64,000 nt of DNA, taken from NCBI GenBank assembly GCA_946481275.1, contig CAMLMV010000033.1, positions 1-64,000 on the forward strand. Direction: 5' to 3'. The position numbers were made by a program, and so were the translations under genes. Each line of letters starts with the position of its first letter. Within the stretch, counting starts at the first letter, position 1. The notes under the pieces were generated by a model that did not search any database, was not told the origin of the DNA, and was given only the letters and a program-made list of their open reading frames with translations. Shown in pieces: positions 40,302 through 55,772 of the stretch. This DNA is from an uncultured Massilia sp. Lineage in GTDB: Bacteria > Pseudomonadota > Gammaproteobacteria > Burkholderiales > Burkholderiaceae.

Positions 40302-41216
40302 TCAGATCGCCGGCACCGGCGAGAACCCCGACACCGCCCGGTACTTGCCGTTCCCGTACCGGAGCACCTGCTTCTGGTCGATCGCCGCCGGCGGCCCCGC
40401 ATACGATTCGGCGCGGCTGATCGCCCCCTGGTAGCGGATGGTCAGGTCGCCCGGCTGTTCATGCGTCGCATCGATGCTCCAGCTGCTGTCGATCGCATAG
40501 CAGTCGTGCGCGTCCGGTGCGCCGCCGTCGTCGCGTGCGACGGGGCCCAGCTGGTGCGGCTTCACGAGCGGGGCCAGGCGGCGCTGGCAGTCGGCCGCGC
40601 TGTCGACGTTGATGCCGGACAGCGCCAGCTCCACGGCCGGCTCGCGCCGGACGGCGTCGCGGCCGACTTCGTACACCGCGAGCCAGGTACCGCAGTAACC
40701 CTCCCAGCAACTGCCGTATTCCACCGCGACGGCCGAGCGGCGCGCGGCCAGCGCGACTTCGCGCACGGCGGCGGCGCCGGAAAAGCCGCGCAGCGCGAAG
40801 ATGCCCTGGCGTCCGCTCACGCCCCACGTGCCGCGACGCTGTTCGAACTGGTAGGCCGCCAGCGCCAGCGGCGTCGCGTGGACGGCGGCGGTGCGGCCGT
40901 CGTCCCCGGCCGGCGCGAGGCCCGCGATCAGGGTCAGGTGCGTGGGGTCCGTGCGCAGCACCAGTTTCGGTTCGACGAGTACGCGGTTCGTGCCCACGTT
41001 CCAGCCGGCGTAGAGGCCGTGCCCGGTGCCGGGAAGCGGCGGCAAGGTCGCGCTGTGCACGCGGCCGGCCGCGCTCTCGCTCCAGCCGGGAAAGGCCAGC
41101 GCAGCCAACTGGGCCGGCGTGGGCAACGGCTGTGCGCCCGCGCTGACGCCAGGCACGCACGCCGACAGCACGGCCACGCCCAATGCGGCGTGGCGTAACG
41201 AAAACGCAGCCGCCAT
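40302..41216 (-). CDS. Exported protein of unknown function, coupled to the HtrA-like protease
   Basis: A 304-residue protein with a signal peptide (LGVAVLSACVPGVSAGA) that may instead be a lipoprotein signal at LSAC. I recognise no family. The sequence is rich in Ala, Gly and Val with a Cys pair in YGSCWEGYCGTW and further Cys residues (DCQRR, HDCYA), suggesting a disulfide-bonded periplasmic domain. Its ATG shares a base with the stop of the upstream protease gene (TGATG), so translation is coupled and a joint function, for example a protease partner or inhibitor, is plausible but unproven. Confidence 0.75.
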   Translation of the reverse strand: MAAAFSLRHAALGVAVLSACVPGVSAGAQPLPTPAQLAALAFPGWSESAAGRVHSATLPPLPGTGHGLYAGWNVGTNRVLVEPKLVLRTDPTHLTLIAGLAPAGDDGRTAAVHATPLALAAYQFEQRRGTWGVSGRQGIFALRGFSGAAAVREVALAARRSAVAVEYGSCWEGYCGTWLAVYEVGRDAVRREPAVELALSGINVDSAADCQRRLAPLVKPHQLGPVARDDGGAPDAHDCYAIDSSWSIDATHEQPGDLTIRYQGAISRAESYAGPPAAIDQKQVLRYGNGKYRAVSGFSPVPAI

Positions 41217-42757
41217 CAGTTCTTCTTGCCGTTCCAGACGTCCAGCATGTCTTGCGAACCTTGCGAGCGGATGCCGTTGTCCTGCAGGACGCCCTCGGTC
41301 GCGTCGACCATCGCCTGGCGCGGCAGGACCATCGTCTCGCCCAGGCGCTGGTCGAAGCGCAGAACGACGAGATCGTCCTTCAGGTCGCGCAGCAGCGCCA
41401 CCAGGTGGCGCAGGCTGGCTACCTTCACGCCGTTGATGGAGTCGACGACGGAGCCGAAGCGGTTGCTGTAGCCCGTCACGAGCTTGTGCGGGAAGAACGG
41501 CGAACTGACGACGACGAGTTCTTCGCGCTGCGCGTCCGGCTCGTCGCCGCGGCGCGTCACGAGCGGGCTCGCGTTGAAACCGTAGGCGTTCAGCAGTTGC
41601 GCGTTGTTGCTGATGAAGGACAGGTATTCGGCCGTGGCGCGCGAGAACACGATCGGACCGTACACGAAGTACGACGGGTAGTCGCCGTCCAGCGCCGGGA
41701 TCAGGAGGGGACGCGGACCGTTCACCGGCACCTGCACCTGCATGGTCTTGCCGTCGCGGACGATGGTGAGCGGCACCTTGCCGTTCTTCGCGACCTGCTG
41801 CACGCGGTACTGGAAGCGTACGCGCAGGTTGGGGCCCAGCCTGACCATGCCCTGGTTGTCGATGGGGTAGTCGCCGATGCGCGTGATGACGTCCCATTCC
41901 TTCAGCGGATACGCGGCATCGCTCCGGTACGGGCGGTGCACGATGACGCCGTCGACCGACTTGTCCAGCTTGAGGTACTGGCGCAGGACCGGATTCTCCA
42001 GCGTCTGGATGTCGTCCAGCAGCAGCGGCTTGCCGTCGTAGCGGCCGTCGGCCACGTCGCGCAGGAACAGCTCCACTTCCTCGTTCGGGATCACGTAGCC
42101 GATGTTCTGGGCGTTCGCCGCCACCGAGAACGCGAGGCCGACCATCTTGTCGCCGTCGATCACGGGGCCGCCGCTGTTGCCGGGGTTGATGGGCGCGTCG
42201 ATCTGCACGCGCAGGCCCGCGCTGCCGTAGCCGTAGGGGACGAATTCGACGCGCGAGACGATGCCCTTGGTGACGGACAGCGACGTGCCGCCCATCGGAT
42301 AGCCGTACGCCATCACGGCTTCGCGCACGTCCGGCAGGACGCTCGTGCGCTTGACCGGGCGGTGCTTGTCGAAGAACGATTCGTCGTCCAGCTTCAGCAG
42401 GGCCAGGTCCATGCCGCGCGCGATGGCGACGACGGTGGCGCCGACCTTGTCGCCGTCCTGGCTCGCCTGCACCTGCACCTGGCTCGCGTAGCCGACGACA
42501 TGGGCGTTGGTGAGGATCCGCTTGCCTTCGATGACGACGCCCGATCCCGTGATGTCCTGCGGCGTGGCCTTGGTCCAGGGCTTGAACGGGTCCGGCCGGC
42601 GCACGGTGCTGAAGATCTTGACGACCGAGTTCTCGACGGCGGGCGACACGGGTGGAGCGGCAGTCGGCGGGGCGGTGGCCTGGCTGGCTTCCTGGGCCTG
42701 GAGCGTGCAGCTGGCCAGCGCGATCGCGGCGGCCGCCGCAAGGCGAACGATCTTCAT
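41216..42757 (-). CDS. HtrA/Deg-like periplasmic serine protease (S1C)
   Basis: A 513-residue trypsin-like protease. A signal sequence (LAAAAAIALASC) has C17 after LAS, so it may be a lipoprotein. The catalytic triad is visible as H86 (TNAHVVG), D117 (RGMDLALL) and S195 (GNSGGP). A PDZ-like region follows (about 270-370: KEWDVITRIGDYPIDNQG), plus a second C-terminal PDZ-like half (FGSVVDSINGVKVASLRHL), an arrangement closer to Deg9/Deg-type proteins than to DegP. Role: envelope protein quality control. AGGGAA precedes ATG 42757. It is the first gene of a two-gene leftward unit with the exported protein 40302-41216. Confidence 0.9.
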   Translation of the reverse strand: MKIVRLAAAAAIALASCTLQAQEASQATAPPTAAPPVSPAVENSVVKIFSTVRRPDPFKPWTKATPQDITGSGVVIEGKRILTNAHVVGYASQVQVQASQDGDKVGATVVAIARGMDLALLKLDDESFFDKHRPVKRTSVLPDVREAVMAYGYPMGGTSLSVTKGIVSRVEFVPYGYGSAGLRVQIDAPINPGNSGGPVIDGDKMVGLAFSVAANAQNIGYVIPNEEVELFLRDVADGRYDGKPLLLDDIQTLENPVLRQYLKLDKSVDGVIVHRPYRSDAAYPLKEWDVITRIGDYPIDNQGMVRLGPNLRVRFQYRVQQVAKNGKVPLTIVRDGKTMQVQVPVNGPRPLLIPALDGDYPSYFVYGPIVFSRATAEYLSFISNNAQLLNAYGFNASPLVTRRGDEPDAQREELVVVSSPFFPHKLVTGYSNRFGSVVDSINGVKVASLRHLVALLRDLKDDLVVLRFDQRLGETMVLPRQAMVDATEGVLQDNGIRSQGSQDMLDVWNGKKN

Positions 42758-43130
42758 GAATTCCCTGTTTTGATGTGCAAATGTGACATGCAAGCGTTGC
42801 CGTCGCAATATACACGGTGCTTAAGTGTAAAAATGCACGAATTCTCACGCGTAACCATTCAGTAATGTCGTGTTGCATCCAGGTGTAATGACGCGTGCAT
42901 ATGCGAGGTGTCCGGCACCCGCCCGGCGGACACCGGGCGGACAGTCGCGGACACCGCGAAACGCCGGAACCCGTGCAAATCCGCCGCCTGCCACGTGGCA
43001 CGAAGATTGCCTATTCAAAACGTCAACTTGCTGCTAAGGTGCATCGGCTTCATCACCCCGCAGTAAAAAAAGGAGCGGCCCGCCACCCGGGCCGCTGACC
43101 AAAAAGAAGTGTGTGATTTCAGGAGAACCC
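42758..43130. promoter_or_regulatory. 373-bp divergent intergenic region before the TldD operon
   Basis: No gene found. The left half (42770-42870) is relatively AT-rich and should carry the leftward promoter of the protease gene; a TATATT-like -10 is visible on the minus strand (in GTGTATATTGCG) but no good -35. The right half holds the hairpin at 43074-43096 and the AGGAGAA ribosome site (43121-43127) of the first TldD gene. Confidence 0.5.
43074..43096. other. GC-rich hairpin in the leader of the TldD operon
   Basis: AGCGGCCCG (43074-43082) pairs with CGGGCCGCT (43088-43096) around a 5-nt loop. An A-run (43065-43071) precedes it, and AAAAAGAAG follows soon after. For leftward transcripts it would be hairpin plus T-run, a terminator; for the TldD mRNA it is a stable 5' leader hairpin 34 bp before ATG. 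Confidence 0.65.
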
Positions 43131-44768
43131 ATGGAACGCCGTACCTTCCTTAAAATCGGTGCCGGGACCGCCGGTGCCATGCTGGTGCCCGTCTTCGGCA
43201 ACGCCATCGCCGCCGAGGAGCTGCTGACCGCGATGCCCATCGCGGCCAAGAAGGCGTTGGCCGACACCGCGCTGAACGCCGCCACCAAGGCCGGCGCGAG
43301 CTATTGCGACGTGCGCATCGGCCGCTATCTCAACCAGTACATCATCACCCGCGACCTGAACGTCGAGAACGTGACGAACACGGAATCGGCCGGCGTCGGC
43401 GTGCGCGTGGTGGTCAACGGCGCGTACGGCTTCGCCGCCACCAACGACATGACCCCGGACGGCATTGCGGGCGCGGCGCGCCAGGCGGTGGCGATCGCCA
43501 AGGCGAACGCCAAGCTGCAGTCCGAGCCGGTTCGTCTCGCACCGGTCAAGGGCGTGGGCGAGGTGTCGTGGGCGACCCCGATCGTCAAGGACTGGCGCGC
43601 GGTGCCCATCAAGGAGAAGGCCGAACTGCTGATCGCGGCGAACAAGGCAGGCATGGATGCCGGCGCGAGCTTCATGCAGTCGATGCTGTTCCAGGTGAAC
43701 CAGCAGAAGTACTTCGCATCGACCGACGGCTCGTACATCGACCAGGACCTGCAGCGCCTGTGGGCGCCGTTCTCCGCGACCGCGGTGGACAAGGCCAGCG
43801 GCAAGTTCCGCTCGCGGAACGGCCTGTCGACGCCGGTCGGCATGGGCTACGAATACCTGGAGGCCCGCAAGGAAGACAAGATCAAGGCGGCGGGCGGCGT
43901 CGCCACGCTGTACACGAAATCGTACGACATCGTCGAGGACGCGCGCGCCGCGGGCCGCGACGCCAAGCGCAAGCTGACCGCGAAGTCGGTCACGCCGGGT
44001 AAATACGACCTGGTGCTATCGCCCGAACACCTGTACCTGACGATCCACGAATCCGTCGGCCACCCCACCGAGCTCGATCGCGTGCTGGGCTACGAGGCGA
44101 ACTACGCCGGCACCAGCTTCGCCACGCTGGATAAATGGGAGTCGAAGTCGTTCAAGTACGGCTCGCCGCTGGTGAACATCGTCGCCGACAAGACGACCCC
44201 GGGCTCGCTGGGCAACGTGGGCTACGACGACGAAGGCGTCAAGACCAAGCGCTGGGACATCATCAAGGACGGCATCCTCGTCAGCTACCAGGCCACGCGC
44301 GACCAGGCGCACATCATCGGCAAGGAAGAGTCGGACGGCTGCTCGTACGCGGACAGCTGGAGCAACGTGCAGTTCCAGCGCATGCCGAACGTCTCCCTGC
44401 AGTCCGGGAAGAAGAAGCTGACGCCGGACGAGATGGTCAAGGACATCAAGAAGGGCATCTACATCGTGGGCGAGGGTTCGTTCTCGATCGACCAGCAGCG
44501 CTACAACTTCCAGTTCGGCGGCCAGCTGTTCTACGAGATCAACAACGGCAAGATCGGCCAGATGCTGGAAGACGTGGCGTACCAGTCGAACACGCAGGAC
44601 TTCTGGAATGCGTGCACGGCGATCTGCGACGAACGCGACTGGCGCATGGGCGGCTCCTTCTTCGACGGCAAGGGCCAGCCTCCGCAAATCAGCATCGTGT
44701 CGCACGGGTCGTCGACCGCGCGCTTCAACGGCATCAACGTCATCAACACCGCCCGCAAGATCGGCTAA
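43131..44768 (+). CDS. TldD-family metalloprotease with Tat signal (copy 1)
   Basis: A 545-residue zinc peptidase of the TldD/PmbA superfamily. The N-terminus MERRTFLKIGAGTAGAML is a twin-arginine (Tat) signal (RRTFLK, hydrophobic core, GNAIAA cleavage region). The zinc motif is H306-E-S-V-G-H311, matching TldD HExxxH, and C499 (TAICDERD) fits the third ligand Cys of E. coli TldD. TldD cleaves unfolded peptides as a heterodimer with TldE. E. coli TldD is cytosolic, so the Tat signal is unusual. AGGAGAA precedes ATG 43131. First gene of the nine-gene run 43131-54668 and very similar to copy 2 at 46173. Confidence 0.9.
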   Translation: MERRTFLKIGAGTAGAMLVPVFGNAIAAEELLTAMPIAAKKALADTALNAATKAGASYCDVRIGRYLNQYIITRDLNVENVTNTESAGVGVRVVVNGAYGFAATNDMTPDGIAGAARQAVAIAKANAKLQSEPVRLAPVKGVGEVSWATPIVKDWRAVPIKEKAELLIAANKAGMDAGASFMQSMLFQVNQQKYFASTDGSYIDQDLQRLWAPFSATAVDKASGKFRSRNGLSTPVGMGYEYLEARKEDKIKAAGGVATLYTKSYDIVEDARAAGRDAKRKLTAKSVTPGKYDLVLSPEHLYLTIHESVGHPTELDRVLGYEANYAGTSFATLDKWESKSFKYGSPLVNIVADKTTPGSLGNVGYDDEGVKTKRWDIIKDGILVSYQATRDQAHIIGKEESDGCSYADSWSNVQFQRMPNVSLQSGKKKLTPDEMVKDIKKGIYIVGEGSFSIDQQRYNFQFGGQLFYEINNGKIGQMLEDVAYQSNTQDFWNACTAICDERDWRMGGSFFDGKGQPPQISIVSHGSSTARFNGINVINTARKIG

Positions 44769-44786
44769 GGCAGGGGACCCCACATC

Positions 44787-46124
44787 ATGACCATCCTGAC
44801 CCAGGAACAGACCAAACATATCACCGACCGCGTCCTCTCGTTCTCGAAGGCGGACGAATGCATCGTCACCGTGAGCGGCAGCCGCAACGGCAATATCCGC
44901 TTCGCGCGCAACCAGGTCTCCACCGCCGGCCTCGCGGACGACACCAACATCGCCGTGACGGTCGCTTTCGGCAAGCGCCAGGGCACCGCCACCATCAACG
45001 AATTCGACGACAAGTCGCTGGAAAAAGTCGTGCGCCGCGCCGAGGACCTGGCGCGCCTGGCGCCGGAGAATCCGGAGTTCATGCCGGCCGTCTCGAAGCA
45101 GGAGTACAAGGCGTCGCAGACGTTCAGCGCGAAGACGGCCGCCATCGATCCGGAATTCCGCGCCCAGACCGCGGCGTACGCGATCGAAGCCTGCAAGAAG
45201 AACAAGCTCGTGGCCGCCGGCTTCTTCACGGACGGTAACCAGTTCTCCAGCGTGGCCAACTCGAACGGCGTGTACGGCCACCAGCAGCAGACGAGCCTCG
45301 ACTTCACCTGCACCGTGCGCACGGAAGACGGCCGCGGCTCCGGCTGGGTCAAGCGCTCGGCCACCGACGCGAACAGGTTCGACGCGCGCGAAGCGGCCGA
45401 CGTCGCGATCGAGAAGGCGCTGCGCTCCGTCGACGCGAAGGCGCTGGAACCGGGCCGCTACACCGTGATCCTGGAACCGGCCGCCACGTCCGAGCTGCTG
45501 GGCTACATGCTGTTCGGCTTCGACGCGCGCCAGACCGACGAAGGCCGCAGCTTCCTGTCGAAGAAGGGCGGCGCCTCGCGCCTGGGCGACAAGCTGTTCG
45601 ACCAGCAGGTCAACATCTGGGCCGACCCGTGGAATCCGGACGTGCCCGTGCTGCCGTGGGACACCGAGAACCTCATCGCCCGCAAGCGCATGGACCTGAT
45701 CAAGGACGGCAAGGTCAATGCACTGAACTACTCGCAGTACTGGGCCAAGAAGAAGGGCGTGCCGGCGACGGCCACGCCGGGCAACATCATCATGGCCGGC
45801 ACGGACAAGTCGACGGCGGAGCTGATCGCCAACACGAAGAAGGGCGTGCTCGTGACCCGCACGTGGTACATCCGCATGGTTGACCCGCAATCCGTGCTGC
45901 TGACGGGCCTGACCCGCGACGGCACGTTCTACATCGAGAACGGCAAGATCAAGTACCCGATCAAGAACTTCCGCTTCAACGAGAGCCCCGTCACGATGCT
46001 CAACAACATCGAGGAGATCGGCAAGCCGGTCGTCATCGGTGGCGACGAGGTGCCGTTCCAGATGCTGATTCCGCCGATGAAGGTACGCGACTTCAACTTC
46101 ACGTCGCTGTCGGACGCGGTTTGA
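44787..46124 (+). CDS. TldE/PmbA-type partner protein without signal peptide
   Basis: A 445-residue TldD/PmbA superfamily protein. It lacks the HExxxH zinc motif, as TldE proteins do, and has family segments VAFGKRQGTATINEFDDKSLEKVVRRAEDLARLAP and EPGRYTVILEPAATSELLGYMLFGFDAR. The N-terminus (MTILTQEQTKHITDRVLSFSK) is hydrophilic with no Sec, Tat or lipoprotein signal. The gene lies 18 bp after TldD copy 1 and 48 bp before copy 2. In E. coli TldD and TldE form a heterodimer, so this is the expected subunit for either TldD; lack of its own signal suggests export in complex with TldD through Tat, or a cytosolic location. Confidence 0.88.
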   Translation: MTILTQEQTKHITDRVLSFSKADECIVTVSGSRNGNIRFARNQVSTAGLADDTNIAVTVAFGKRQGTATINEFDDKSLEKVVRRAEDLARLAPENPEFMPAVSKQEYKASQTFSAKTAAIDPEFRAQTAAYAIEACKKNKLVAAGFFTDGNQFSSVANSNGVYGHQQQTSLDFTCTVRTEDGRGSGWVKRSATDANRFDAREAADVAIEKALRSVDAKALEPGRYTVILEPAATSELLGYMLFGFDARQTDEGRSFLSKKGGASRLGDKLFDQQVNIWADPWNPDVPVLPWDTENLIARKRMDLIKDGKVNALNYSQYWAKKKGVPATATPGNIIMAGTDKSTAELIANTKKGVLVTRTWYIRMVDPQSVLLTGLTRDGTFYIENGKIKYPIKNFRFNESPVTMLNNIEEIGKPVVIGGDEVPFQMLIPPMKVRDFNFTSLSDAV

Positions 46125-46172
46125 TGTGAACGGGTGGGCACGGCGTGCCCACCCTGCCACGATGGAGACACA

Positions 46173-47810
46173 ATGGAACGTCGTACCTTCCTCAAAATCG
46201 GTGCCGGCACGGCCGGCGCCATGCTGGTTCCCGTGTTCGGCAACGCGATCGCCGCCGAGGAACTGCTCAATCCCCTCGCGTTGAGCTTCAAGAAATCGCT
46301 GGCCGACACCGCGATGGACGCCGCGAAAAAAGCGGGCGCCTCGTACTGCGACGTGCGCATCGGCCGCTACCTGAACCAGTACATCACCACGCGCGACCTG
46401 AACGTCGAGAGCGTGACGAATACCGAATCGACGGGCATCGGCGTGCGCGTGATCGCCGCCGGCGCCTACGGCTTCGCCGCCACGAATTCACTGACGCCGG
46501 ATGCCGTCGCCGGCGCCGCGCGGCAAGCCGTCGCCATCGCGAAGGCCAACGCGAAGCTGCAGACGGAGCCCGTGCAGCTCGCGCCGGTGAAGGGCGTGGG
46601 CGAAGTCGCGTGGGCGACGCCGATCAGGAAAGACTGGCGCAGCGTGCCCGTGAAGGACAAGGCCGACATGCTGATCGCCGCGAACAAGGCGGGCCTCGCG
46701 GCCGGCGCCAGCTTCATGACGGCGAACCTGTTCCAGGTGAACCAGCAGAAGTATTTTGCATCGACCGACGGCTCGTACATCGACCAGGACATCCACCGCC
46801 TGTGGGCGCCGATCAACGCGACGGCGGTCGACAAGGCGACGGGCAAATTCCGTTCGCGGGCGGGCCTGGCGCCGCCGGTCGGCATGGGCTACGAGTATTT
46901 CGACGTGAAGCCGGAGCACAAGGTGCGCGCGGCCGGCGGCGTGGCCACGCTGTACAACGGCGGCTACGACATCGTCGAGGAAGCGAAGAACGCGGGCCGC
47001 CAGGCGCGCGAAAAGCTCACGGCGAAGAGCGTGGACCCGGGCAAGTATGACCTCGTGCTGGCGCCGGAAAACCTGTTCCTGACGATCCACGAATCCGTCG
47101 GCCACCCCACGGAACTGGACCGCGTGCTGGGCTACGAAGCCAACTACGCCGGCACGAGCTTCTGCACGCTGGATAAATGGGAATCTCGTAAGTTCAACTT
47201 CGGCTCGAAGATCGTCAACTTCACGGGCGACAAGACGGCGCCGGGATCGCTGGGCGCCGTCGCCTACGACGACGAAGGCGTGCCGGCGAAGCGCTGGGAC
47301 ATCATCAGGGACGGCATCCTCGTCAACTACCAGGCCACGCGCGACCAGGCGCACATCATCGGCGAAAAGGAATCGCACGGCTGCTCGTACGCGGACAGCT
47401 GGAGCAAGGTGCAGTTCCAGCGCATGCCAAACGTGTCGCTCGTCCCCGGCAAGCAAAGGCTCACGCCGGACGAGATGGTCAAGGACGTCAAGAAGGGCAT
47501 CTACATCCTCGGCCGCGGTTCCTACTCCATCGACCAGCAGCGCTACAACTTCCAGTTCGGCGGCCAGCTGTACTTCGAGATCAAGGACGGCAAGATCGGC
47601 CAGATGCTGGAAGACGTGGCCTACCAGTCGAACACGCAGGACTTCTGGAATGCGTGCACGGCGATCTGCGACGAGCGCGACTGGCGCATGAGCGGCTCCT
47701 TCTTCGACGGCAAGGGCCAGCCGAGCCAGGTCAGCGCCGTGTCGCACGGCACGTCGACGACGCGCTTCAACGGCATCAACGTGATCAACACGGGCCGCAA
47801 GATCGGCTGA
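46173..47810 (+). CDS. TldD-family metalloprotease with Tat signal (copy 2)
   Basis: A second 545-residue TldD, the same length as copy 1. The Tat signal MERRTFLKIGAGTAGAML continues identical to copy 1 through about residue 32, while codons differ at many third positions, so it is an old duplication under selection rather than a recent copy. The HESVGH zinc motif and the C-terminal CDERDWRM segment are kept. Differences cluster in surface segments (for example FDVKPEHKVRAAGG versus LEARKEDKIKAAGG). GGAG lies before ATG 46173. It is followed 5 bp later by the DUF4159 gene. Confidence 0.9.
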   Translation: MERRTFLKIGAGTAGAMLVPVFGNAIAAEELLNPLALSFKKSLADTAMDAAKKAGASYCDVRIGRYLNQYITTRDLNVESVTNTESTGIGVRVIAAGAYGFAATNSLTPDAVAGAARQAVAIAKANAKLQTEPVQLAPVKGVGEVAWATPIRKDWRSVPVKDKADMLIAANKAGLAAGASFMTANLFQVNQQKYFASTDGSYIDQDIHRLWAPINATAVDKATGKFRSRAGLAPPVGMGYEYFDVKPEHKVRAAGGVATLYNGGYDIVEEAKNAGRQAREKLTAKSVDPGKYDLVLAPENLFLTIHESVGHPTELDRVLGYEANYAGTSFCTLDKWESRKFNFGSKIVNFTGDKTAPGSLGAVAYDDEGVPAKRWDIIRDGILVNYQATRDQAHIIGEKESHGCSYADSWSKVQFQRMPNVSLVPGKQRLTPDEMVKDVKKGIYILGRGSYSIDQQRYNFQFGGQLYFEIKDGKIGQMLEDVAYQSNTQDFWNACTAICDERDWRMSGSFFDGKGQPSQVSAVSHGTSTTRFNGINVINTGRKIG

Positions 47811-47815
47811 AGAGA

Positions 47816-48436
47816 ATGGCGACGTACGACTTCTACTTCACGCGGCTGACGTACGAGTCGGGCGACTGGGACGTGGACCAGCGCATGCCCAGCAACGTCC
47901 TGAACTCGCTCGTCGAGTACACGACGTTGCGGGTGGATACCGCCGAGCGCATCGTCGCATTGGCGGACCCGAAGATTCTGGAAGCGCCGTTCTGCTACCT
48001 GGCCGGGCACAAGCTCGTGCAATTCACGCCGGCCGAGCGGCGCAACTTCGAGCGCTACGTGAAGGGCGGCGGCTTCGTGTTCGTGGACGACTGCAACCAC
48101 GACATCGACGGCCTGTTCGCCAAATCCTTCGAGGCCGAGATGGCGCGCATCTTCGGCCCGAAGGCGCTGCACAAGATCCCCAACAACCACCGGCTGTATT
48201 CCAGCTTCTTCCACTTCGACGGGCCGCCCAACACGGCGGTGGAACTGAACGGCTGGGGCGACGATCTCGTGCACGAATACCTGCGCGCCATCGAGGTGGG
48301 TGGCCGCATCGGCGTGCTGTACTCGAACAAGGACTACGGCTGCGAGTGGGACTACGACTTCCGCAACAAGCGCTGGCTCGCGGTCGACAACACGCGCTTT
48401 GCAGTCAACATCATTCAATACGCGTTAGGAGCATAG
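47816..48436 (+). CDS. DUF4159-domain protein
   Basis: A 206-residue protein of the DUF4159 family (PF13709). Motifs: FYFTRLTYESGDWDVDQRMPSNVLNSLVEYTTL, GGFVFVDDCNHDIDGLF (a glutamine-amidotransferase-like turn) and GVLYSNKDYGCEWDYDF. Members usually sit beside MoxR ATPase, DUF58 and BatA genes, as here. No signal peptide or membrane helix, so cytosolic or membrane-peripheral. It starts 5 bp after TldD copy 2 and ends 2 bp before the MoxR gene; co-translation is likely. Biochemical role unknown. Confidence 0.85.
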   Translation: MATYDFYFTRLTYESGDWDVDQRMPSNVLNSLVEYTTLRVDTAERIVALADPKILEAPFCYLAGHKLVQFTPAERRNFERYVKGGGFVFVDDCNHDIDGLFAKSFEAEMARIFGPKALHKIPNNHRLYSSFFHFDGPPNTAVELNGWGDDLVHEYLRAIEVGGRIGVLYSNKDYGCEWDYDFRNKRWLAVDNTRFAVNIIQYALGA

Positions 48437-48438
48437 AA

Positions 48439-49434
48439 GTGGCAGAAGCGGCATGGACTGAGAACGAGATCGCCGACCTCGCGGCGAAGGTGGACGCGCT
48501 CAAGGCGAGCATGGGCCGCGTGATCATCGGCCAGCGCGACGTGATCGACCTGCTGGTGACGTGCCTGCTGGGCGGCGGCCATGCGCTCGTCGAGGGCGTG
48601 CCGGGCCTCGGCAAGACGCTGCTCGTGAAATCGCTGGCGCAGGCGACCGACATGCAGTTCCGGCGCGTGCAGTTCACGCCGGACCTGATGCCGTCCGATA
48701 TCGTCGGCACCGAGATCCTGGAAGAAGACCAGGCCACGCGCCAGCGCGTGTTCCGCTTCCAGCCGGGCCCCGTGTTCACGCAGGTGCTGCTCGCGGACGA
48801 GATCAACCGCGCGCCGCCGAAGACGCAGTCCGCGCTGCTGGAAGCGATGCAGGAACGCAGCGTGACCTTCGCCGGCCAGACGCACAAGCTGCCCAAGCCG
48901 TTCTTCGTGCTCGCGACGCAGAACCCGATCGAGCAGGCCGGCACGTATCCGCTGCCGGAAGCGCAGCTCGACCGCTTCCTGCTGCGCATCGACGTCGGCT
49001 ACCCGACCGAGGATGAAGAGATGATGATGGTCGGCGCGACGACGCATGCCGGCCTGCGCGATGCCGATCCCGCGATGGACCTCGAGACGCTGCTGCGCCT
49101 GCAGCAGCTCGTGCGCGACATCGAGATCTCGGATGCGATGCTGCGCTACGCGACGCGCCTCGTGCGCGCGACGCGCCCGGCCGATTCGCCCGTCGAAGCG
49201 ATCCGCAAGCACATCGGCTGGGGTGCCGGCCCGCGCGCCGGCCAGGCCCTCGTGCTGGCGTCGAAGGCGCGCGCGCTGATGCATGGGCGCCTCGCCGTCA
49301 CGCGCGACGACATTGGCGCGATGCTGCTGCCCGTGCTGGCGCACCGCGTGCTGCGCAATTTCGAGGCCGAGGCGGACGGCGTCGCCATCGCGGACATCCT
49401 CGCCGCGCTGCATGCCGGCATCCGTGCCGAGTAA
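48439..49434 (+). CDS. MoxR-family AAA+ ATPase
   Basis: A 331-residue AAA+ chaperone-like ATPase starting at GTG, with AGGAG 7 bp upstream. Walker A G53-V-P-G-L-G-K-T60, Walker B LLADEINRAPPK (D120, E121), sensor 1 VLATQNPIEQAGTYPLPEAQLDRF and arginine-rich sensor 2 region RKHIGWGAGPRAGQ are complete. MoxR proteins act with vWA-domain partners to mature or load metal cofactors or assemble protein complexes. The partners here should be the DUF58 and BatA-like proteins encoded directly downstream. Confidence 0.95.
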   Translation: MAEAAWTENEIADLAAKVDALKASMGRVIIGQRDVIDLLVTCLLGGGHALVEGVPGLGKTLLVKSLAQATDMQFRRVQFTPDLMPSDIVGTEILEEDQATRQRVFRFQPGPVFTQVLLADEINRAPPKTQSALLEAMQERSVTFAGQTHKLPKPFFVLATQNPIEQAGTYPLPEAQLDRFLLRIDVGYPTEDEEMMMVGATTHAGLRDADPAMDLETLLRLQQLVRDIEISDAMLRYATRLVRATRPADSPVEAIRKHIGWGAGPRAGQALVLASKARALMHGRLAVTRDDIGAMLLPVLAHRVLRNFEAEADGVAIADILAALHAGIRAE

Positions 49435-49437
49435 CAC

Positions 49438-50322
49438 GTGCTTGATAGTTCGGCGCTGATCGCGCACACGACCAACCTCGACCTCGTGGTGCGCCACGTG
49501 CTGGCGGGGCTCGGCCACGGCATCCACGCCGGGCGCGAGCGGGGCGCCGGCGTCGAGTTCTCGGAATACCGGGCCTATGCACCCGGCGACGAGTGGCGCC
49601 GCGTCGACTGGAAACTCCTCGCGCGCGCCGATCGATATTATGTGCGCGAGGCCGAGCGCGACAGCCACGTCGCCGTCTGGCTCGTGCTGGACGCGACCGC
49701 GTCGATGGCGGAACCCAGCCGCAGCGTGGAAGGGCTCACGAAGCTGCAGTACGCACGCGTGCTGCTCGCGTGCGTAGCCGCCATCGCGCAGCGCCAGGGT
49801 GACGCGTTCGGGCTCGTCGTGTGCCGCGGCGAGCGCGCCGATTTCACGCCGGCCGCGCGCGGGCCGCGCCAGCTGCAGCGCGTGCTGGCGCGCCTGAACG
49901 GGGTGGACGCGGGCGGCGTGCTGCCCGGCGCCGACACCCTGCGCGCCAGCCTGCATTTCAGTCGTGCGCCCGGCGTCGTCTGCGTGGCGAGCGACTTCCT
50001 CGACTGGCCGTCGCCGCTGTCCGACGCACTGCTGCGCCTGCGCCGCATGCGCCACGACGTGCGCGCGCTGTGCCTGCACACGCAGGCCGAGGTGGATGCC
50101 GCGTTCGACACCGCGCCGGCTTATCGCGACCCCGAGCACGGCGGCGCCGTCTACCGCTTCGGCCGCGACGTCAAGGACGCGTACGTCCGCAACCGCGCGG
50201 TGCACTTCGACGAGGTCGTGCGTGCCTGCCGCAAGAACGACGTGCCGCTGGTCCAGGCGCGTATCGAGCAGGCGCCGGGAGAGGTCCTGCGCGCCTGGTT
50301 ACGGGGAGCGCGGGCCGCATGA
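49438..50322 (+). CDS. DUF58 protein with vWA-like fold
   Basis: A 294-residue protein of the DUF58 family. It contains the diagnostic FSEYRAYAPGDEWRRVDWKLLARADRYYVREAERD (residues about 41-75) and a vWA-type metal site LVLDATASMA (D85, T87, S89). The start is GTG 49438, three bases after the MoxR stop, and the end overlaps the next gene (ATGA). DUF58 proteins are the usual MoxR partners; this one appears soluble. Confidence 0.92.
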   Translation: MLDSSALIAHTTNLDLVVRHVLAGLGHGIHAGRERGAGVEFSEYRAYAPGDEWRRVDWKLLARADRYYVREAERDSHVAVWLVLDATASMAEPSRSVEGLTKLQYARVLLACVAAIAQRQGDAFGLVVCRGERADFTPAARGPRQLQRVLARLNGVDAGGVLPGADTLRASLHFSRAPGVVCVASDFLDWPSPLSDALLRLRRMRHDVRALCLHTQAEVDAAFDTAPAYRDPEHGGAVYRFGRDVKDAYVRNRAVHFDEVVRACRKNDVPLVQARIEQAPGEVLRAWLRGARAA

Positions 50323-51188
50323 ACGGAATGAGCTTGTGGTGGTGGGCGCTGCCTGTCGTGGTGCTGCCCATCCTGTGGCACCGCCAGAAGCGCGAGCAGA
50401 CGAAGACGTCGCTGCTCGCCTCCGCGCGCTTCCTGCCGGCGGCGGAACCGAAGCTGCGGCGCGTGTGGCGCTGGCACGACGTGATCCTGCTGGCGCTGCG
50501 CTGCCTGTTGCTCGTGACCCTGATCGCGCTGCTGGCCGACCTCGTGCTGGCGTGGCGCGGGGACACGGTGCTGGTCGTGCCGGGGACGCCGCCGGCCGTC
50601 GTTGAAAAAGAAGCTGGGCAGCGCATCGCGCTGCCCGATCGCGACGCGGTGACGTGGCTGCACGCGCATGAGCGCGAATTCGAACCGGGCGCGCGCGTGG
50701 TCGTCGTCGGCGACGCCGTCATGCCGGCCGTGCGGCCGCGCTTCCGGCATGCCGTCGAGCTGCGCACGGTGGCGGCACCTGCCGTACCGGCCGAGCGCCA
50801 TGTCGCCGTCTTCAGCGACCGCGCCGAAGACTGGCGCCGGCTGTTCGCGGCGGCCGAGGGCGCGTGGCATATCGTCGTCGATGCGGCGCCCGGACCGCGC
50901 ACGGACCTCGTCGTGTGGGACCGGCCCGACGCGCCGCCGGCCGGCCTGCGCGCACCGCTGTGGCGCGCAGAGCCGCCGCACGATACCGACGGCGCACGCG
51001 CCCTGTTCGCCGCGTGGCAGCGCCAGTATTTCGGCGTACAACCCTACACGGCGCCCGCACAGGCACTCGCGCCGGACGCCGCCGCGCCGGCCGGACCGGC
51101 TTCCGGCGCGCTGCGCCACTGGCTGGGTCTCGCGCTCGTCGTGCTGTTCGCACTCGAAAGGATTGTCACCCATGTCCGGCGCCGCTGA
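50319..51188 (+). CDS. BatA-N-terminal-domain membrane protein
   Basis: A 289-residue membrane protein with the N-terminal aerotolerance BatA signature (MSLWWWALPVVVLPILWHRQKREQTKTSLLASARFLP). The first helix is at about residues 4-20, a second at about 55-75 (LLALRCLLLVTLIALLADLVLAW) and one near the C-terminus (LGLALVVLFALERIV). No vWA metal site is seen, so it may be only an anchor or scaffold for the MoxR/DUF58 pair. ATGA overlap with the DUF58 stop; it overlaps the next gene by 17 bp. Confidence 0.85.
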   Translation: MNGMSLWWWALPVVVLPILWHRQKREQTKTSLLASARFLPAAEPKLRRVWRWHDVILLALRCLLLVTLIALLADLVLAWRGDTVLVVPGTPPAVVEKEAGQRIALPDRDAVTWLHAHEREFEPGARVVVVGDAVMPAVRPRFRHAVELRTVAAPAVPAERHVAVFSDRAEDWRRLFAAAEGAWHIVVDAAPGPRTDLVVWDRPDAPPAGLRAPLWRAEPPHDTDGARALFAAWQRQYFGVQPYTAPAQALAPDAAAPAGPASGALRHWLGLALVVLFALERIVTHVRRR

Positions 51189-53157
51189 TCTTGCGCGCTC
51201 ATTGCATATCACCTTGTGGCGCGCCGCATTGCTGCGCCGGGCCGGCTTGTGGTTCGTTGGTGCGCTGCCCTGGCTGCTGCTGCGTTCCGGCCCCGGCCTG
51301 CTGGCCTGGTCCGCGTTCTGCGCGTGGGATGGCCTGCACCTGCAACGCCGCGTGGCGCACGGCTGGACACACTGGATCGACGGCGCCGTGCCCGAGATGG
51401 AAGACAGCGCCGCGTTGCTGGCGCAGGAACCGGAGACGCCCGTCGCGCGCCTGCAGCGCGAGCGCCTGCTGAAGCGTATCGATGCCGCGCTGCCGCCGCG
51501 CCGCGTGCGCGCGATCGTGGCTGCGCACGTGCCGTTCGGCTGGACCTGGCTGCTCGCGAATCTCGCGCTCGCGGGCCTGGCGTGGGGTTCGTCCCTGCTG
51601 CCGCACGCGGCGGGCACGCCGCCCACCAAGGCGCCCGGCCGTCAGGCAGCCGCACCCGTCGCGCACGCGGGGCTGGTCGTAAAACTGGCGCCGCCGTCGT
51701 ACACGGGCGTCGCGCCGTCGTCGTCCGCACCGAAGGATGCGCAGGTGCCGGAGCAGACGGCCGTCGAATGGTGCCTGGACGACCCGCACAAGGCGGATGA
51801 AACCATCGAGCTGAGCGACGGCCAGACCCTGCACGCGGGCCCGCAATGCGCGCGCTGGACGGCGACGGAATCCATCTTCTGGCGTTGGCGCGGCACGCGC
51901 TACACGCTGAAGGTGGTCCCGGACCAGCCGCCGGAGATCGCGATCACGCAGCCGAACGAGATGACGAAGGACCTGCCGCGCGATGCGAGGAACGCTGTCA
52001 TTGCCGTCACCGTCACGGATGACTACCGCGTCCAGCAGGCCACGCTGCACCTGACATTGGCGCGCGGCAGCGGCGAGAACATCCGCTTCAGCGACCGCGA
52101 ACTGCCGGTGCCCGCATCGTCGGACCCGCGCCGGCGCAACTGGAGCCGCGATTGGCTGCTGGCGGACCTCGGCATGGAGCCGGGCGACGAGCTGTACTTT
52201 TTCGTGCGTGCGAGCGACAACGCGGCGCGGCCGCACACGGTGCAATCGCCCACGGTCACGCTGCGCCTGCCCGCGCCGCCGTCGGAACAGGATGAAGAGA
52301 CGACGGCGCTGCCTACGCTCGTCAAGCCGGAAAGCCTGCGCAGCCAGCGCCAGGTGATCATCGACACGGAGCAGCTGGTCGCCGATATGCGGGTCAAGAA
52401 GATGCGCGAGGACGAGGTGCGCGAACGAAGTGAAAGCATCGCCGCCGACCAGACCGCGCTGCGCCGCCGCTACGGCCAGTTCCTCGGCGAGGAATCCACG
52501 CTGTTCGGCAAGGACGACGACCATGACGAGCATCCCGGCCAAAAGCTCGACGTGCTGCACGAATTCGGCCACGCGCACGACTCGGTCGAGAACGCGACCC
52601 TGTTCGACGACGCGACGAAAAAGCTGTTGCGCCGCGCGCTGTCCGCGATGTGGGATGCGGAAAAGGCACTGCGCGCCATCACGCCGAAGACGGCGCTGCC
52701 GCCTGAGTACAAGGCGCTGGAAGCAATCAAGGAATTGCAGCAGTCGGAACGCATCTACCTGCACAAGACGGCGTTCGCCCCGCCGGCCATCAAGGAGGAC
52801 AAGCGCATGAGCGGCGACATGGCCGGCGCGGCCAGCTACAAGCGCGCGCAGGCGGACGCCGCGGAGATCGTGCCGGCGAACCTGCGCGACCTCGTGCAGG
52901 CGCTCGGCGGCGAGGGTCCGCTGCCCGCGCTGTGGACGCGCACGGCGCACGACTGGGTGCGCGAGCGCATCGCGGACGATGAGCAGCGGCTCGCGGCGCA
53001 GCGGGCGATCCAGGACGTTGCCGACGGCAAGCCCGCCGCGCGTGCGCAACTGGCCGCGTGGCTGCGCGGCGGCGTGCTTGACGCGCCCGTGCTGCTGCAG
53101 GCGCGGCCCGTCGTCGAGACGCCGTTCGCGAAAGCGCTGCGGGGAGGCGGGCGATGA
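51172..53157 (+). CDS. DUF4175-like large membrane protein
   Basis: A 661-residue protein. Two membrane segments in the first 150 residues (LRRAGLWFVGALPWLLLRSG; FGWTWLLANLALAGLAWG) are followed by a large extracytoplasmic region. That region starts with an Ig-like domain (AHAGLVVKLAPPSYTGVAP and VVPDQPPEIAITQPNEMTKDLPRDARNAVIAVTVTDDYRV) and ends in long coiled-coil helices (about 390-640). DUF4175 proteins have this build. It starts 17 bp inside the BatA-like gene and ends in a 4-bp overlap with the next gene. Probably an envelope structural component of the MoxR-linked complex. Confidence 0.75.
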   Translation: MSGAADLARSLHITLWRAALLRRAGLWFVGALPWLLLRSGPGLLAWSAFCAWDGLHLQRRVAHGWTHWIDGAVPEMEDSAALLAQEPETPVARLQRERLLKRIDAALPPRRVRAIVAAHVPFGWTWLLANLALAGLAWGSSLLPHAAGTPPTKAPGRQAAAPVAHAGLVVKLAPPSYTGVAPSSSAPKDAQVPEQTAVEWCLDDPHKADETIELSDGQTLHAGPQCARWTATESIFWRWRGTRYTLKVVPDQPPEIAITQPNEMTKDLPRDARNAVIAVTVTDDYRVQQATLHLTLARGSGENIRFSDRELPVPASSDPRRRNWSRDWLLADLGMEPGDELYFFVRASDNAARPHTVQSPTVTLRLPAPPSEQDEETTALPTLVKPESLRSQRQVIIDTEQLVADMRVKKMREDEVRERSESIAADQTALRRRYGQFLGEESTLFGKDDDHDEHPGQKLDVLHEFGHAHDSVENATLFDDATKKLLRRALSAMWDAEKALRAITPKTALPPEYKALEAIKELQQSERIYLHKTAFAPPAIKEDKRMSGDMAGAASYKRAQADAAEIVPANLRDLVQALGGEGPLPALWTRTAHDWVRERIADDEQRLAAQRAIQDVADGKPAARAQLAAWLRGGVLDAPVLLQARPVVETPFAKALRGGGR

Positions 53158-54668
53158 TCGCCGTCGCCGCTGTCGCCATCGGCGTGCTGGCCGCGCTGGC
53201 GTATGCCGTGGGCCGGCGCTGGATCGATGCTGTGCTGGCGCTCGTCGCGGGTGTCGCGTTGGCCGGCGCGGTCGGTGAATTCGCGTTGCCGGGCGAGGCG
53301 GGGACCACGCTGACGGTCGATGCGGCCGATCCGCCGCGCACGCTGGCCGGCATACGGACGTTGCGCCTGTCCGGCGACGGCCTGCGCGCGGCCGAGTGGG
53401 ACGACCTGCCGGCCCGTCCGCTCGACTGGAAGCAACCGGATACGCCCGCCATCGATCTCGACTTCCCGCGCACGATCGCGCTGGGCCGCGTGTTCCCGCT
53501 GAGGGTGCACCGCTCGTGGTCCGCGTCCGGCCGTCTGCAACTGCTGGCGGAGAACGGTCAGATATTGGCCGAAGCGAAGGGAGACACCGACCTCGCCGTG
53601 CAATGGCTGCCGCCCGTCGCGGAGCGGCTGGTCTTGAGGGCGCGCCTGCTTGATGCTGCCGGCAAGGTCGTCGATGAGGGCCCGGTACCGTTCACGGTGA
53701 CGGAGCCCGCGCCGCTGCAGGTGCGCGGCCGGTTCGGCGCGCCTTCGTTTGACCTGCGCGTGCTGGACGACCTGCTGGCGGCCAGCGGCGCCGTCATCGA
53801 CTGGCAGGTCGAACTGGGCAAGGGACTGGAGCGTGCCGAGACGGCGCGTGCGGAGATGGACAAGCCGGACATCGAGATCGTCGACGCGGCGTGGTTCGAG
53901 CGGGCCGGTGCGGGCACCCGCGACGCGCTGCTGTCCCGCGTGGCCGGCGGCACGCGGCTGCTCGTGCTGGGCGCGAACGCGCGCGATGCCGGTACGTGGG
54001 CGCGCAGCGTGCAGTTGCCGCTGGCGCCGCAGCCGGCCAACAAGACCGCCGGCACGGTGCTGCCGATGGCGTCCGGCGGCCTGAATCCGAACGGCGACCG
54101 CGCCGGCGAGTGGACAGGTAAAGACGGCTTGTGGACGCGCGACTGGAAAGACGGCCGCATCGCCTGGCTGGGCGTGGGCGACTGGCATCGCCACGCGATC
54201 GCGCAGCCGCGCCAGCTGGCGCTGTGGTGGCAGGACATTCTCGACCGCCTGCACGTGCAACGCCGCGCTGACGTCGCATGGCTCGACCCGGAGGAGATGC
54301 CGCTGCCGCACCGGCGCCTCGCGATCTGCGCGCGCGGCGTGAGCGGGAACGTGACCGTGGCGGAACTGAAGCAGACGCTCGCCTGGCAGCGCCGCCCGGA
54401 ACACGTGGACGCCGCCTGCGTGGCCGTGTGGCCCGCGGCCAGCGGCTGGCTGCATCTGCAAGCTGACAAGAACGAGGGCCAGGTGTACGTGTACGCGCCG
54501 GGCGACTGGCCATTGTGGCAACGCAGCGAACGCCGCGCGGCGACGGTGCAGTATGCGGCGCGCACACCGGCGCCGGTCGCGCCGGGTACGCGGCTGCTCC
54601 CTGTGTGGCCGTTCGGCGTCGCGTTCGCGCTGGCGATGCTCTGTCTCTGGTGGCGCGAACGGCGCTGA
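53154..54668 (+). CDS. Membrane protein at the end of the MoxR operon
   Basis: A 504-residue protein with two helices at the N-terminus (MIAVAAVAIGVLAALAYAVG; WIDAVLALVAGVALAGAV) and one at the C-terminus (VWPFGVAFALAMLCLWW). The middle resembles the glutamine-amidotransferase-like domain of proteins next to BatA genes (GGTRLLVLGANARDAGTWARSV; GRIAWLGVGDWHRHAIAQPRQLALWWQDILDRL). It begins in a 4-bp overlap with the DUF4175-like gene and closes the nine-gene run. No catalytic residues recognised. Confidence 0.75.
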   Translation: MIAVAAVAIGVLAALAYAVGRRWIDAVLALVAGVALAGAVGEFALPGEAGTTLTVDAADPPRTLAGIRTLRLSGDGLRAAEWDDLPARPLDWKQPDTPAIDLDFPRTIALGRVFPLRVHRSWSASGRLQLLAENGQILAEAKGDTDLAVQWLPPVAERLVLRARLLDAAGKVVDEGPVPFTVTEPAPLQVRGRFGAPSFDLRVLDDLLAASGAVIDWQVELGKGLERAETARAEMDKPDIEIVDAAWFERAGAGTRDALLSRVAGGTRLLVLGANARDAGTWARSVQLPLAPQPANKTAGTVLPMASGGLNPNGDRAGEWTGKDGLWTRDWKDGRIAWLGVGDWHRHAIAQPRQLALWWQDILDRLHVQRRADVAWLDPEEMPLPHRRLAICARGVSGNVTVAELKQTLAWQRRPEHVDAACVAVWPAASGWLHLQADKNEGQVYVYAPGDWPLWQRSERRAATVQYAARTPAPVAPGTRLLPVWPFGVAFALAMLCLWWRERR

Positions 54669-54740: not shown

Positions 54741-55772
54741 ATGTCTGAAACCAACGCCCCACGTCTCCCCGACGGCCGTTTCCGCAACGTCGTCCCGCGT
54801 CGCCGCCAGGGCATCCTGGAGATGCTGGCGCTGTTCTGGAAAGTGTCGACGACGAAGCCGAAGACAGCCATGCCCGACCAGCCGCTGCCCGTGCAGCCGG
54901 TGACAAGGGCCGACATCGAATCCGCACCCGACGCGAGCCTATGGCGCCTGGGCCATTCGACCATGCTGTTCAAGCTCGCCGGCCGCTACTGGCTCACGGA
55001 CCCCGTGTTTTCCGAGCGCGCCGCGCCGGTGCAGTGGGCCGGTCCGAAGCGTTTTCACGCAGCGCCGATCGATATCGAGGCGCTGCCGCGGCTTGCCGGC
55101 GTGATCCTGTCGCACGACCATTACGACCACCTGGATCACGCCAGCATCAAGCGCCTGATCCCGAAGACCGACCAGTTCATCGCGCCGCTGGGTGTGGGCG
55201 ACCGCATCGTCCGCTGGGGCGTCGATGCCGCGAAGGTGCGCCAGCTCGACTGGTGGCAATCGACGGACGTCGAGGGCCTGCGCCTGACGGCCGCGCCGTC
55301 GCGGCATTTTTCGGGCAGGAGTCTCAGCGACGGCGACCGCACCTTGTGGGTGTCGTGGGTGATCGAGGCGGCCGGCCTGAAGCTGTTCTTCAGCGGCGAC
55401 ACGGGTTACCACGATGATTTCAAGACCATCGGCGAGCGTTTCGGCCCGTTCGACGTGACGTTCCTCGAAAACGGCGCGTACAACGAGATGTGGCCCGAGG
55501 TGCACATGCTGCCCGAGGAGACGCTGCAGGCGCACCTGGATTTGCGCGGACGCTGGCTGGTGCCGGTCCACAACGGCACGTTCGATCTGGCGCTGCATCC
55601 GTGGTACGAGCCGTTCGAGCGTATCGCCGACCTCGCGCGCGCGGCCGGCGTGAAGCTGGCGACGCCGATGATGGGCGAGCGCCTGGCGCTGGCGCAGCCG
55701 CAGGAAGGCGCCAGCTGGTGGCGCGAGGCGATGCCGGCGCCGGCCTTGCCGCTCACGCCCGCAGCGCGCTGA
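54741..55772 (+). CDS. Metallo-beta-lactamase-fold hydrolase, NAPE-PLD/UlaG-like
   Basis: A 343-residue cytosolic metallohydrolase. The signature SHDHYDHLDHASI is the HxHxDH metal motif. Other metal ligands are probably in APSRHFSG and SGDTGYHDDF, with a C-terminal PVHNGTFDLALHPWYEPFERI, the pattern of N-acylphosphatidylethanolamine phospholipase D-like enzymes. It starts 72 bp after the MoxR operon and could be a separate transcript. Its 3' end overlaps the convergent adenylating-enzyme gene by 20 bp. Confidence 0.9.
   Translation: MSETNAPRLPDGRFRNVVPRRRQGILEMLALFWKVSTTKPKTAMPDQPLPVQPVTRADIESAPDASLWRLGHSTMLFKLAGRYWLTDPVFSERAAPVQWAGPKRFHAAPIDIEALPRLAGVILSHDHYDHLDHASIKRLIPKTDQFIAPLGVGDRIVRWGVDAAKVRQLDWWQSTDVEGLRLTAAPSRHFSGRSLSDGDRTLWVSWVIEAAGLKLFFSGDTGYHDDFKTIGERFGPFDVTFLENGAYNEMWPEVHMLPEETLQAHLDLRGRWLVPVHNGTFDLALHPWYEPFERIADLARAAGVKLATPMMGERLALAQPQEGASWWREAMPAPALPLTPAAR

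Follow-up and report, generated by a model that had tools for sequence, protein, structure and literature searches.

A conserved nine-gene operon that combines TldD/TldE-type peptidases, predicted to be exported, with a MoxR/DUF58 membrane module

Why would two metallopeptidases of the TldD type and their partner TldE, which together form an intracellular peptidase that acts on unfolded peptides, be encoded in one run of genes with a MoxR ATPase, a DUF58 protein and membrane proteins? The question is raised by a contig from an uncultured Massilia sp. (assembly GCA_946481275.1, contig CAMLMV010000033.1), whose first 64,000 nucleotides are the window referred to here. At 43131-54668 on the + strand the window carries nine co-oriented open reading frames (ORFs) of 545, 445, 545, 206, 331, 294, 289, 661 and 504 amino acids (aa). 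To our knowledge, the targets of MoxR/DUF58/Bat-type envelope machines are an open question. The nine-gene set is a real, conserved operon that extends across many families and into a second phylum. Judged from sequence, it seems to direct an altered form of TldD/E to the envelope and to link it with an ATP-driven membrane machine.

Gene content and distribution of the operon

A preliminary description of this DNA had noted nine co-oriented genes with almost no spacing and several overlaps, and the intervals between successive genes (18, 48, 5, 2, 3, -4, -17 and -4 bases), ranging from -17 to +48, agree with it. From this spacing, and from the conservation of the set, we infer that the nine genes form a single transcript. 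The parts list of that description (two TldDs, TldE, MoxR, DUF4159, DUF58, BatA-like and DUF4175) was also right by Pfam and TIGR02226. All three PmbA_TldD Pfam domains are above cut-off in TldD-A, TldE and TldD-B, and the Pfam scores are 168.5 bits for DUF4159, 218 for the AAA_3 domain of MoxR, 109.8 for DUF58 and 54.2 for DUF4175. The BatA-like protein falls just below the cut-off of Pfam BatA (25.2 against 25.9) and above that of TIGR02226 (35.8 against 23.05), and the ninth protein has no family match in Pfam or NCBIfam. Simple hydropathy finds membrane segments in the BatA-like and ninth proteins. The gene of the MoxR-type AAA_3 ATPase adjoins the DUF58 gene in the window and in its relatives; in the window these two genes start with GTG. 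The best protein hits bear names of the Massilia/Telluria group.

A search for DUF4159 in 348 Pseudomonadota genomes matched 107 of them, with one match apiece, which ORF length divides into 13 stand-alone proteins (216-299 aa) and 94 longer ones, here called fused (578-1253 aa). Each of the 13 stand-alone loci is surrounded by TldD, TldE, MoxR, DUF58, DUF4175 and the ninth gene, the last being recognised by profile alone in three of them; the six fused-type loci that were examined all have MoxR and DUF58, and none has a Tld gene in its 20 kb of sequence. A TldD profile run against the same 348 genomes at E 1e-90 gave 14 matches, namely the 13 genomes with a stand-alone DUF4159 and one more, G226, where the TldD relative is distant (467 bits against at least 1000 for the others) and has TldE nearby and no other operon gene. 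Both genes thus occur together in 13 genomes, stand-alone DUF4159 occurs alone in none and a distant TldD relative alone in one; among the 94 fused-type genomes the profile found nothing except this signal-less relative in G226.

A scan of public species genomes gave at least 599 stretches, 585 of them confirmed, and the best 80 served as named loci. After omission of the 26 with less than 9 kb following the last TldD, the operon is present at 51 of the 54 that have 9 kb or more, with TldE at 54, DUF4159, MoxR, DUF58 and DUF4175 at 52 each and the ninth gene at 51. The BatA-like gene is too divergent for a profile in most loci and is clear by sequence only in some. The named genomes include Stenotrophomonas, Xanthomonas, Lysobacter, Luteimonas, Tahibacter, Nevskia, Microbulbifer, Sphingobium, Erythrobacter, Brevundimonas and a few Bacteroidota; the full gene set is found in Fibrisoma, which is one of the 51, and additionally in Rufibacter. 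The genes are grouped beyond chance, because many families, and also another phylum, have the same set. In Pseudomonadota the Tld and MoxR parts are not independently distributed, and both the idea of one conserved gene set and its reach beyond close strains hold. Within Burkholderiales its distribution is narrow. With the DUF4159 protein as query a match was found there in 36 of 37 genomes of one genus, that of the genome nearest to the window (44% of sampled words common), and in none of 24 genomes that belong to the order's other families. The only member of the genus that lacks DUF4159, G032, has two Tld genes in all.

Alternatively, the Tld genes and the MoxR module might be envelope functions under shared regulation whose products never touch, which would fit with the existence of a related module that has no exported TldD, and with TldD/E standing apart at some Bacteroidota/Chlorobiota loci (L182, L185). 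We consider such mere neighbourhood improbable, in view of the nearly perfect joint presence in the 348 genomes, a gene order that is the same in many families, and the lack of both DUF4159 and the operon's Tld genes in G032.

The Tld set of the operon is an addition to the cell's own, because nine of ten operon genomes examined also have a canonical Tld pair apart from it. A TldD tree of 48 rows, made without a clade test, joins the two Massilia copies as sisters and likewise the two of Microbulbifer, and places second copies of Lysobacteraceae in a separate clade; TldD has thus been duplicated more than once. The alphaproteobacterial TldDs nest among those of Lysobacteraceae, which suggests horizontal transfer. 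The two window TldDs are identical over their first 30 residues (43131-43220 and 46173-46262) and 81% identical as whole proteins, possibly by gene conversion or by selection on the signal. At L142, labelled Verrucomicrobia, TldD/TldE lie at a contig end, and no DUF4159 was matched in that genome. Rufibacter, Fibrisoma and a Thermochlorobacteriaceae genome (L203, L205, L207) each have a further DUF4159 that is distant, hydrophobic at its N-terminus and without a Tld gene nearby. Among viral contigs 33 stretches fitted a pattern, and no relative is encoded in any of them.

The twin-arginine motif and the metal site of TldD

Both window TldDs start with MERRTFLKIGAGTAGAMLVPVFGNAIAAEE, an N-terminus that resembles signals of the twin-arginine translocation (Tat) system, with a clear RRxF[LI] motif and a Pfam TAT score below threshold. 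The preliminary description did not mention this twin-arginine (RR) motif. Of 131 readable TldDs, from two phyla, 129 have it ahead of the mature domain, against 2 of 92 TldEs; 25 frames of TldD, TldE or DUF4159 that have no readable anchor are left out of the RR counts. The two TldDs scored as RR-less are L115, where the pattern misplaced the anchor, and L184, which has KRKDF.

The metal site has also changed. In E. coli TldD the ligands are both His of HExxxH and Cys454, and Lys456 is tied to Glu270 and Asp272, according to the accessible part of PMC5810440. Among 143 operon TldDs, a count that includes one Brevundimonas genome twice (L066, L150), HExxxHxxExD and DGKGQ are present in all and CGK in none; HExxxH is found in 1 of 92 TldEs. 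In a profile alignment against 13 canonical TldDs the Asp falls on the Cys and GK on GK. These 13 are the frames with CGK that were kept from 17 past a first filter, so a count of CGK in 13/13 would be circular; the four dropped frames are L093 and L107, operon loci of G181, and L097 and L098, which lie on the opposite strand and were taken as spurious. The relative in G226, which has no visible signal, aligns gap-free at the DGK site and has CGK. With its TldE (L202, 7362-10259) it makes up a distant pair within this lineage, outside such an operon, and is a useful intermediate. By the profile alignment and this bridging sequence, the Asp of DGK replaces the ligand Cys454 with HExxxH retained, so that the probably exported subfamily has a carboxylate in place of a thiolate. 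It is plausible that the swap is an adaptation to the periplasm. The Cys of the motif ICDER was also considered as a metal ligand and dropped, as it varies among TldDs.

The Tat motifs and the loss of the Cys ligand favour export, and we conclude that the operon TldDs are probably not in the cytosol, where the preliminary description had placed them, but leave through Tat, presumably together with the signal-less TldE. The cytosolic alternative, in which TldD/E receives peptides from the ATPase and the N-terminal motif is not used for export, can point to the missing signal of TldE, to the sub-threshold Tat score and to the signal-less DUF4159 of Massilia. Against it stand the RR motif in 129 of 131 TldDs from two phyla and DGK for CGK in 143/143, with CGK retained in the signal-less relative; we hold this alternative to be very doubtful.

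The DUF4159 protein and possible roles of the machine

There is, in our judgement, about an even chance that the operon encodes an envelope machine that is driven by MoxR/DUF58 and has TldD/E as its peptidase arm in the periplasm. TldD would fold, bind its metal and pair with TldE in the cytosol, and the pair would then exit through Tat with TldE as a passenger. In the periplasm TldD/E would cleave unfolded peptides, with the Asp ligand in place of a thiolate, which could become oxidised there. We are less sure of the remaining steps, in which MoxR and DUF58, on the cytosolic side, would spend ATP to drive the BatA-like, DUF4175 and ninth proteins together with DUF4159, and these would remodel or quality-control envelope proteins with TldD/E as their proteolytic arm. 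The machine would act for the envelope as a whole and not just for TldD, since its relatives in alphaproteobacteria occur without an exported TldD. In a bolder version, which we regard as speculative and rather unlikely, MoxR/DUF58 in the cytosol would supply the energy for a trans-membrane complex; this complex would pull apart proteins of the envelope and pass the unfolded polypeptides to a Tat-exported TldD/TldE chamber with the Cys-to-Asp metal site. If this were true, ATP would power proteolysis in the periplasm, which itself has none, by a metal site rebuilt for an oxidising space.

The main rival is that the MoxR/DUF58/membrane module activates the exported TldD/E, by metal insertion or a conformational change, as is done for methanol dehydrogenase. 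MoxR proteins are described as maturation factors, including MoxR for methanol dehydrogenase, in the available part of PMC3893208, and the dependence is one-sided: a close exported TldD is found only with the machine (13/13 genomes), and the fused-type machine occurs without TldD. The same fused-type module must then have another client, and the TldD/E of L182 and L185 are away from the machine genes. Moreover, TldD/E of E. coli was purified as an active heterodimer, and the accessible text of PMC5810440 has nothing that points to a dedicated machine. Maturation is possible but, as we see it, unlikely.

Several observations weigh against the envelope machine. Its weakest point is the DUF4159 protein. 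In other genera many DUF4159 proteins begin with a signal-like stretch, frequently TRAxFLR, which has only one Arg, but in Massilia, where 23 of 30 loci are readable, a signal is present in none of the 23; in 18 a stop lies at most 26 codons upstream of the domain, and five have longer frames. The proteins of Fibrisoma and Rufibacter likewise have no signal. A signal-less DUF4159 is hard to reconcile with a periplasmic machine unless it travels out with TldD, and in these three genera it may either do so or stay in the cytosol. (The RR pattern on DUF4159, 26/73, is too loose to serve as a count.) Pfam TAT_signal gives the window TldDs 18.4 bits against a cut-off of 22.7. TatC was found in 22 of 22 operon genomes tested against 11 of 14 controls, and because it is so common in the controls this is a weak test and a consistency check only. 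The DUF4175 protein has no membrane segment above the hydropathy threshold, and of the three membrane proteins counted in the preliminary description two are certain, the BatA-like and the ninth. The TldD-TldE pairs of L182 and L185 have no other operon genes adjoining; both genomes carry DUF4159 elsewhere, that of Rufibacter inside the full operon. Finally, G181 (L070) has the three Tld genes of the operon and no canonical pair, and there the set could do cytosolic work.

In Tld-type DUF4159 Cys93 is invariant (in alignments of 23 and of 32 rows), and so is Cys176 (23 rows). A general role as the catalytic Cys of a hydrolase is not supported, since Cys93 is missing in all eight others that were added, five fused and three from Bacteroidota/Chlorobiota; it may have a role in the Tld-type subfamily.

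An exported TldD/E tied to a MoxR machine would give the machine an assayable candidate output, periplasmic peptidase activity, and the CGK/DGK swap would mark exported TldDs in a way that can be tested. Deletions are feasible in many of the carrier genera, which are ordinary bacteria of soil and water.

Features of the locus and comparison with known systems

A sigma-54-like -24/-12 element, TGGCACGAAGATTGC, lies at 42996-43010, 121 bases 5' of TldD-A. The pattern TGGCA[CT]N5TTGC occurs in 14 of 23 upstream regions of the genus, and a relaxed one in 16; seven regions lack the element and the conserved block is broader than it, so that sigma-54 control is kept only as possible. A sigma-70 scan gave no match. 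Between the sigma-54-like site and the first gene, at 43074-43096, is a G+C-rich hairpin of nine pairs, and terminator-like sites are as many as expected (8 observed, 8.5 expected). The flanking genes were rejected as operon members because among the loci searched they were matched only at L072, in the nearest genome. The features are listed in Table 1; the model of the ninth protein, given there with its predicted template modelling score (pTM), has low Foldseek TM-scores.

Table 1. Positions of operon genes, motifs and flanking genes in the window
Feature	Position	Strand	Basis
TldD-A, 545 aa, predicted catalytic subunit of a TldD/E-type metallopeptidase	43131..44768	+	three PmbA_TldD domains; HESVGH at residues 306-311, DGKGQ at 512-516
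Predicted Tat signal peptide of TldD-A (ERRTFLK ... AIAAEE)	43131..43214	+	TAT_signal 18.4 bits; RR conserved in relatives; exact cleavage site inferred
HExxxH metal motif, TldD-A	44046..44063	+	invariant in alignment of relatives and in 143/143 TldDs
DGKGQ motif, TldD-A, Asp at position of E. coli Cys454	44664..44678	+	alignment; ligand role of Cys454 from the accessible part of PMC5810440
TldE, 445 aa, no HExxxH, no signal peptide	44787..46124	+	Pfam; alignment; RR motif in 2/92 relatives
TldD-B, 545 aa, second TldD, 81% identity to TldD-A	46173..47810	+	Pfam; sequence comparison
Predicted Tat signal peptide of TldD-B	46173..46256	+	first 30 residues same as TldD-A; Pfam
HExxxH metal motif, TldD-B	47088..47105	+	sequence
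DGKGQ motif, TldD-B	47706..47720	+	sequence
DUF4159 protein, 206 aa, amidotransferase/ThuA-like fold, no signal peptide	47816..48436	+	Pfam; model pTM 0.86; 4i66 matched by fold and sequence
MoxR AAA+ ATPase, 331 aa	48439..49434	+	Pfam AAA_3; Walker A GVPGLGKT; LLADE
DUF58 (vWA-type) protein, 294 aa	49438..50322	+	Pfam DUF58, weak VWA_2; MIDAS-like DATAS
BatA-like membrane protein, 289 aa	50319..51188	+	TIGR02226 above cut-off; hydropathy
DUF4175 protein, 661 aa	51172..53157	+	Pfam DUF4175
Ninth protein, 504 aa, two N-terminal and one C-terminal membrane segments, Ig-like and ThuA-like middle domains	53154..54668	+	hydropathy; model pTM 0.74; fold matches
Flanking gene, periplasmic trypsin-like protease by inspection	41216-42808	-	outside operon
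Flanking gene, metallo-hydrolase	54741-55772		outside operon

We found no functional study of the operon in the open-licence literature, and nothing there on TldD with DUF4159, on TldD with MoxR and DUF58, or on DUF4159 itself, which agrees with the preliminary description, where no characterised system with this gene set was known. A single paper that brings together TldD, twin-arginine and periplasm is, to judge from its title, about something else. The accessible part of PMC7688217 mentions a "not-yet-characterized operon" of S. maltophilia that encodes two TldDs, one putative protease, one MoxR-like ATPase, one membrane protein and three hypothetical proteins; in biofilms, some of its genes are down-regulated in every isolate. 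The S. maltophilia loci in our set (L121, L122, L144) lead us to infer that this is the same operon.

The operon has much in common with TldD/TldE (PmbA) of E. coli: the same three-domain superfamily, HExxxH in TldD only, a conserved ExD behind it, and TldD and TldE encoded together. It differs by the N-terminal Tat motif, the Asp for Cys454, the often two TldDs and the linked MoxR module. The activation genes of methanol dehydrogenase (mxa), with MoxR, DUF58 and vWA membrane proteins, presumably share the arrangement of a cytosolic MoxR with vWA/DUF58-type and membrane partners that act on a periplasmic enzyme; here, no methanol dehydrogenase is among the nine and the candidate client is a peptidase. 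The Bat operon of Bacteroidota and spirochaetes has MoxR, DUF58 and a BatA-type protein, as does the operon in the window, which adds Tld, DUF4159 and DUF4175. No BatB, BatC, BatD, BatE-type or TPR protein was recognised among the nine by Pfam, no dedicated comparison having been made.

The machine part resembles the TldD-less module of alphaproteobacteria (five loci), where MoxR also adjoins DUF58 and the BatA-like, DUF4159 and ninth proteins are matched with hhalign probabilities of 97.0, 91.7 and 95.8; a DUF4175 profile had no match in either fused-type protein. In the operon, by contrast, DUF4159 is separate and not fused to the BatA part, and TldD, TldE and DUF4175 are added. We tentatively take this module, of MoxR, DUF58, a BatA to DUF4159 fusion and a membrane protein, to be the RL3499-RL3502 envelope-integrity operon of Rhizobium leguminosarum. 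The MoxR protein RL3499 of Rhizobium is, according to the available part of PMC3893208, important for membrane integrity and morphology.

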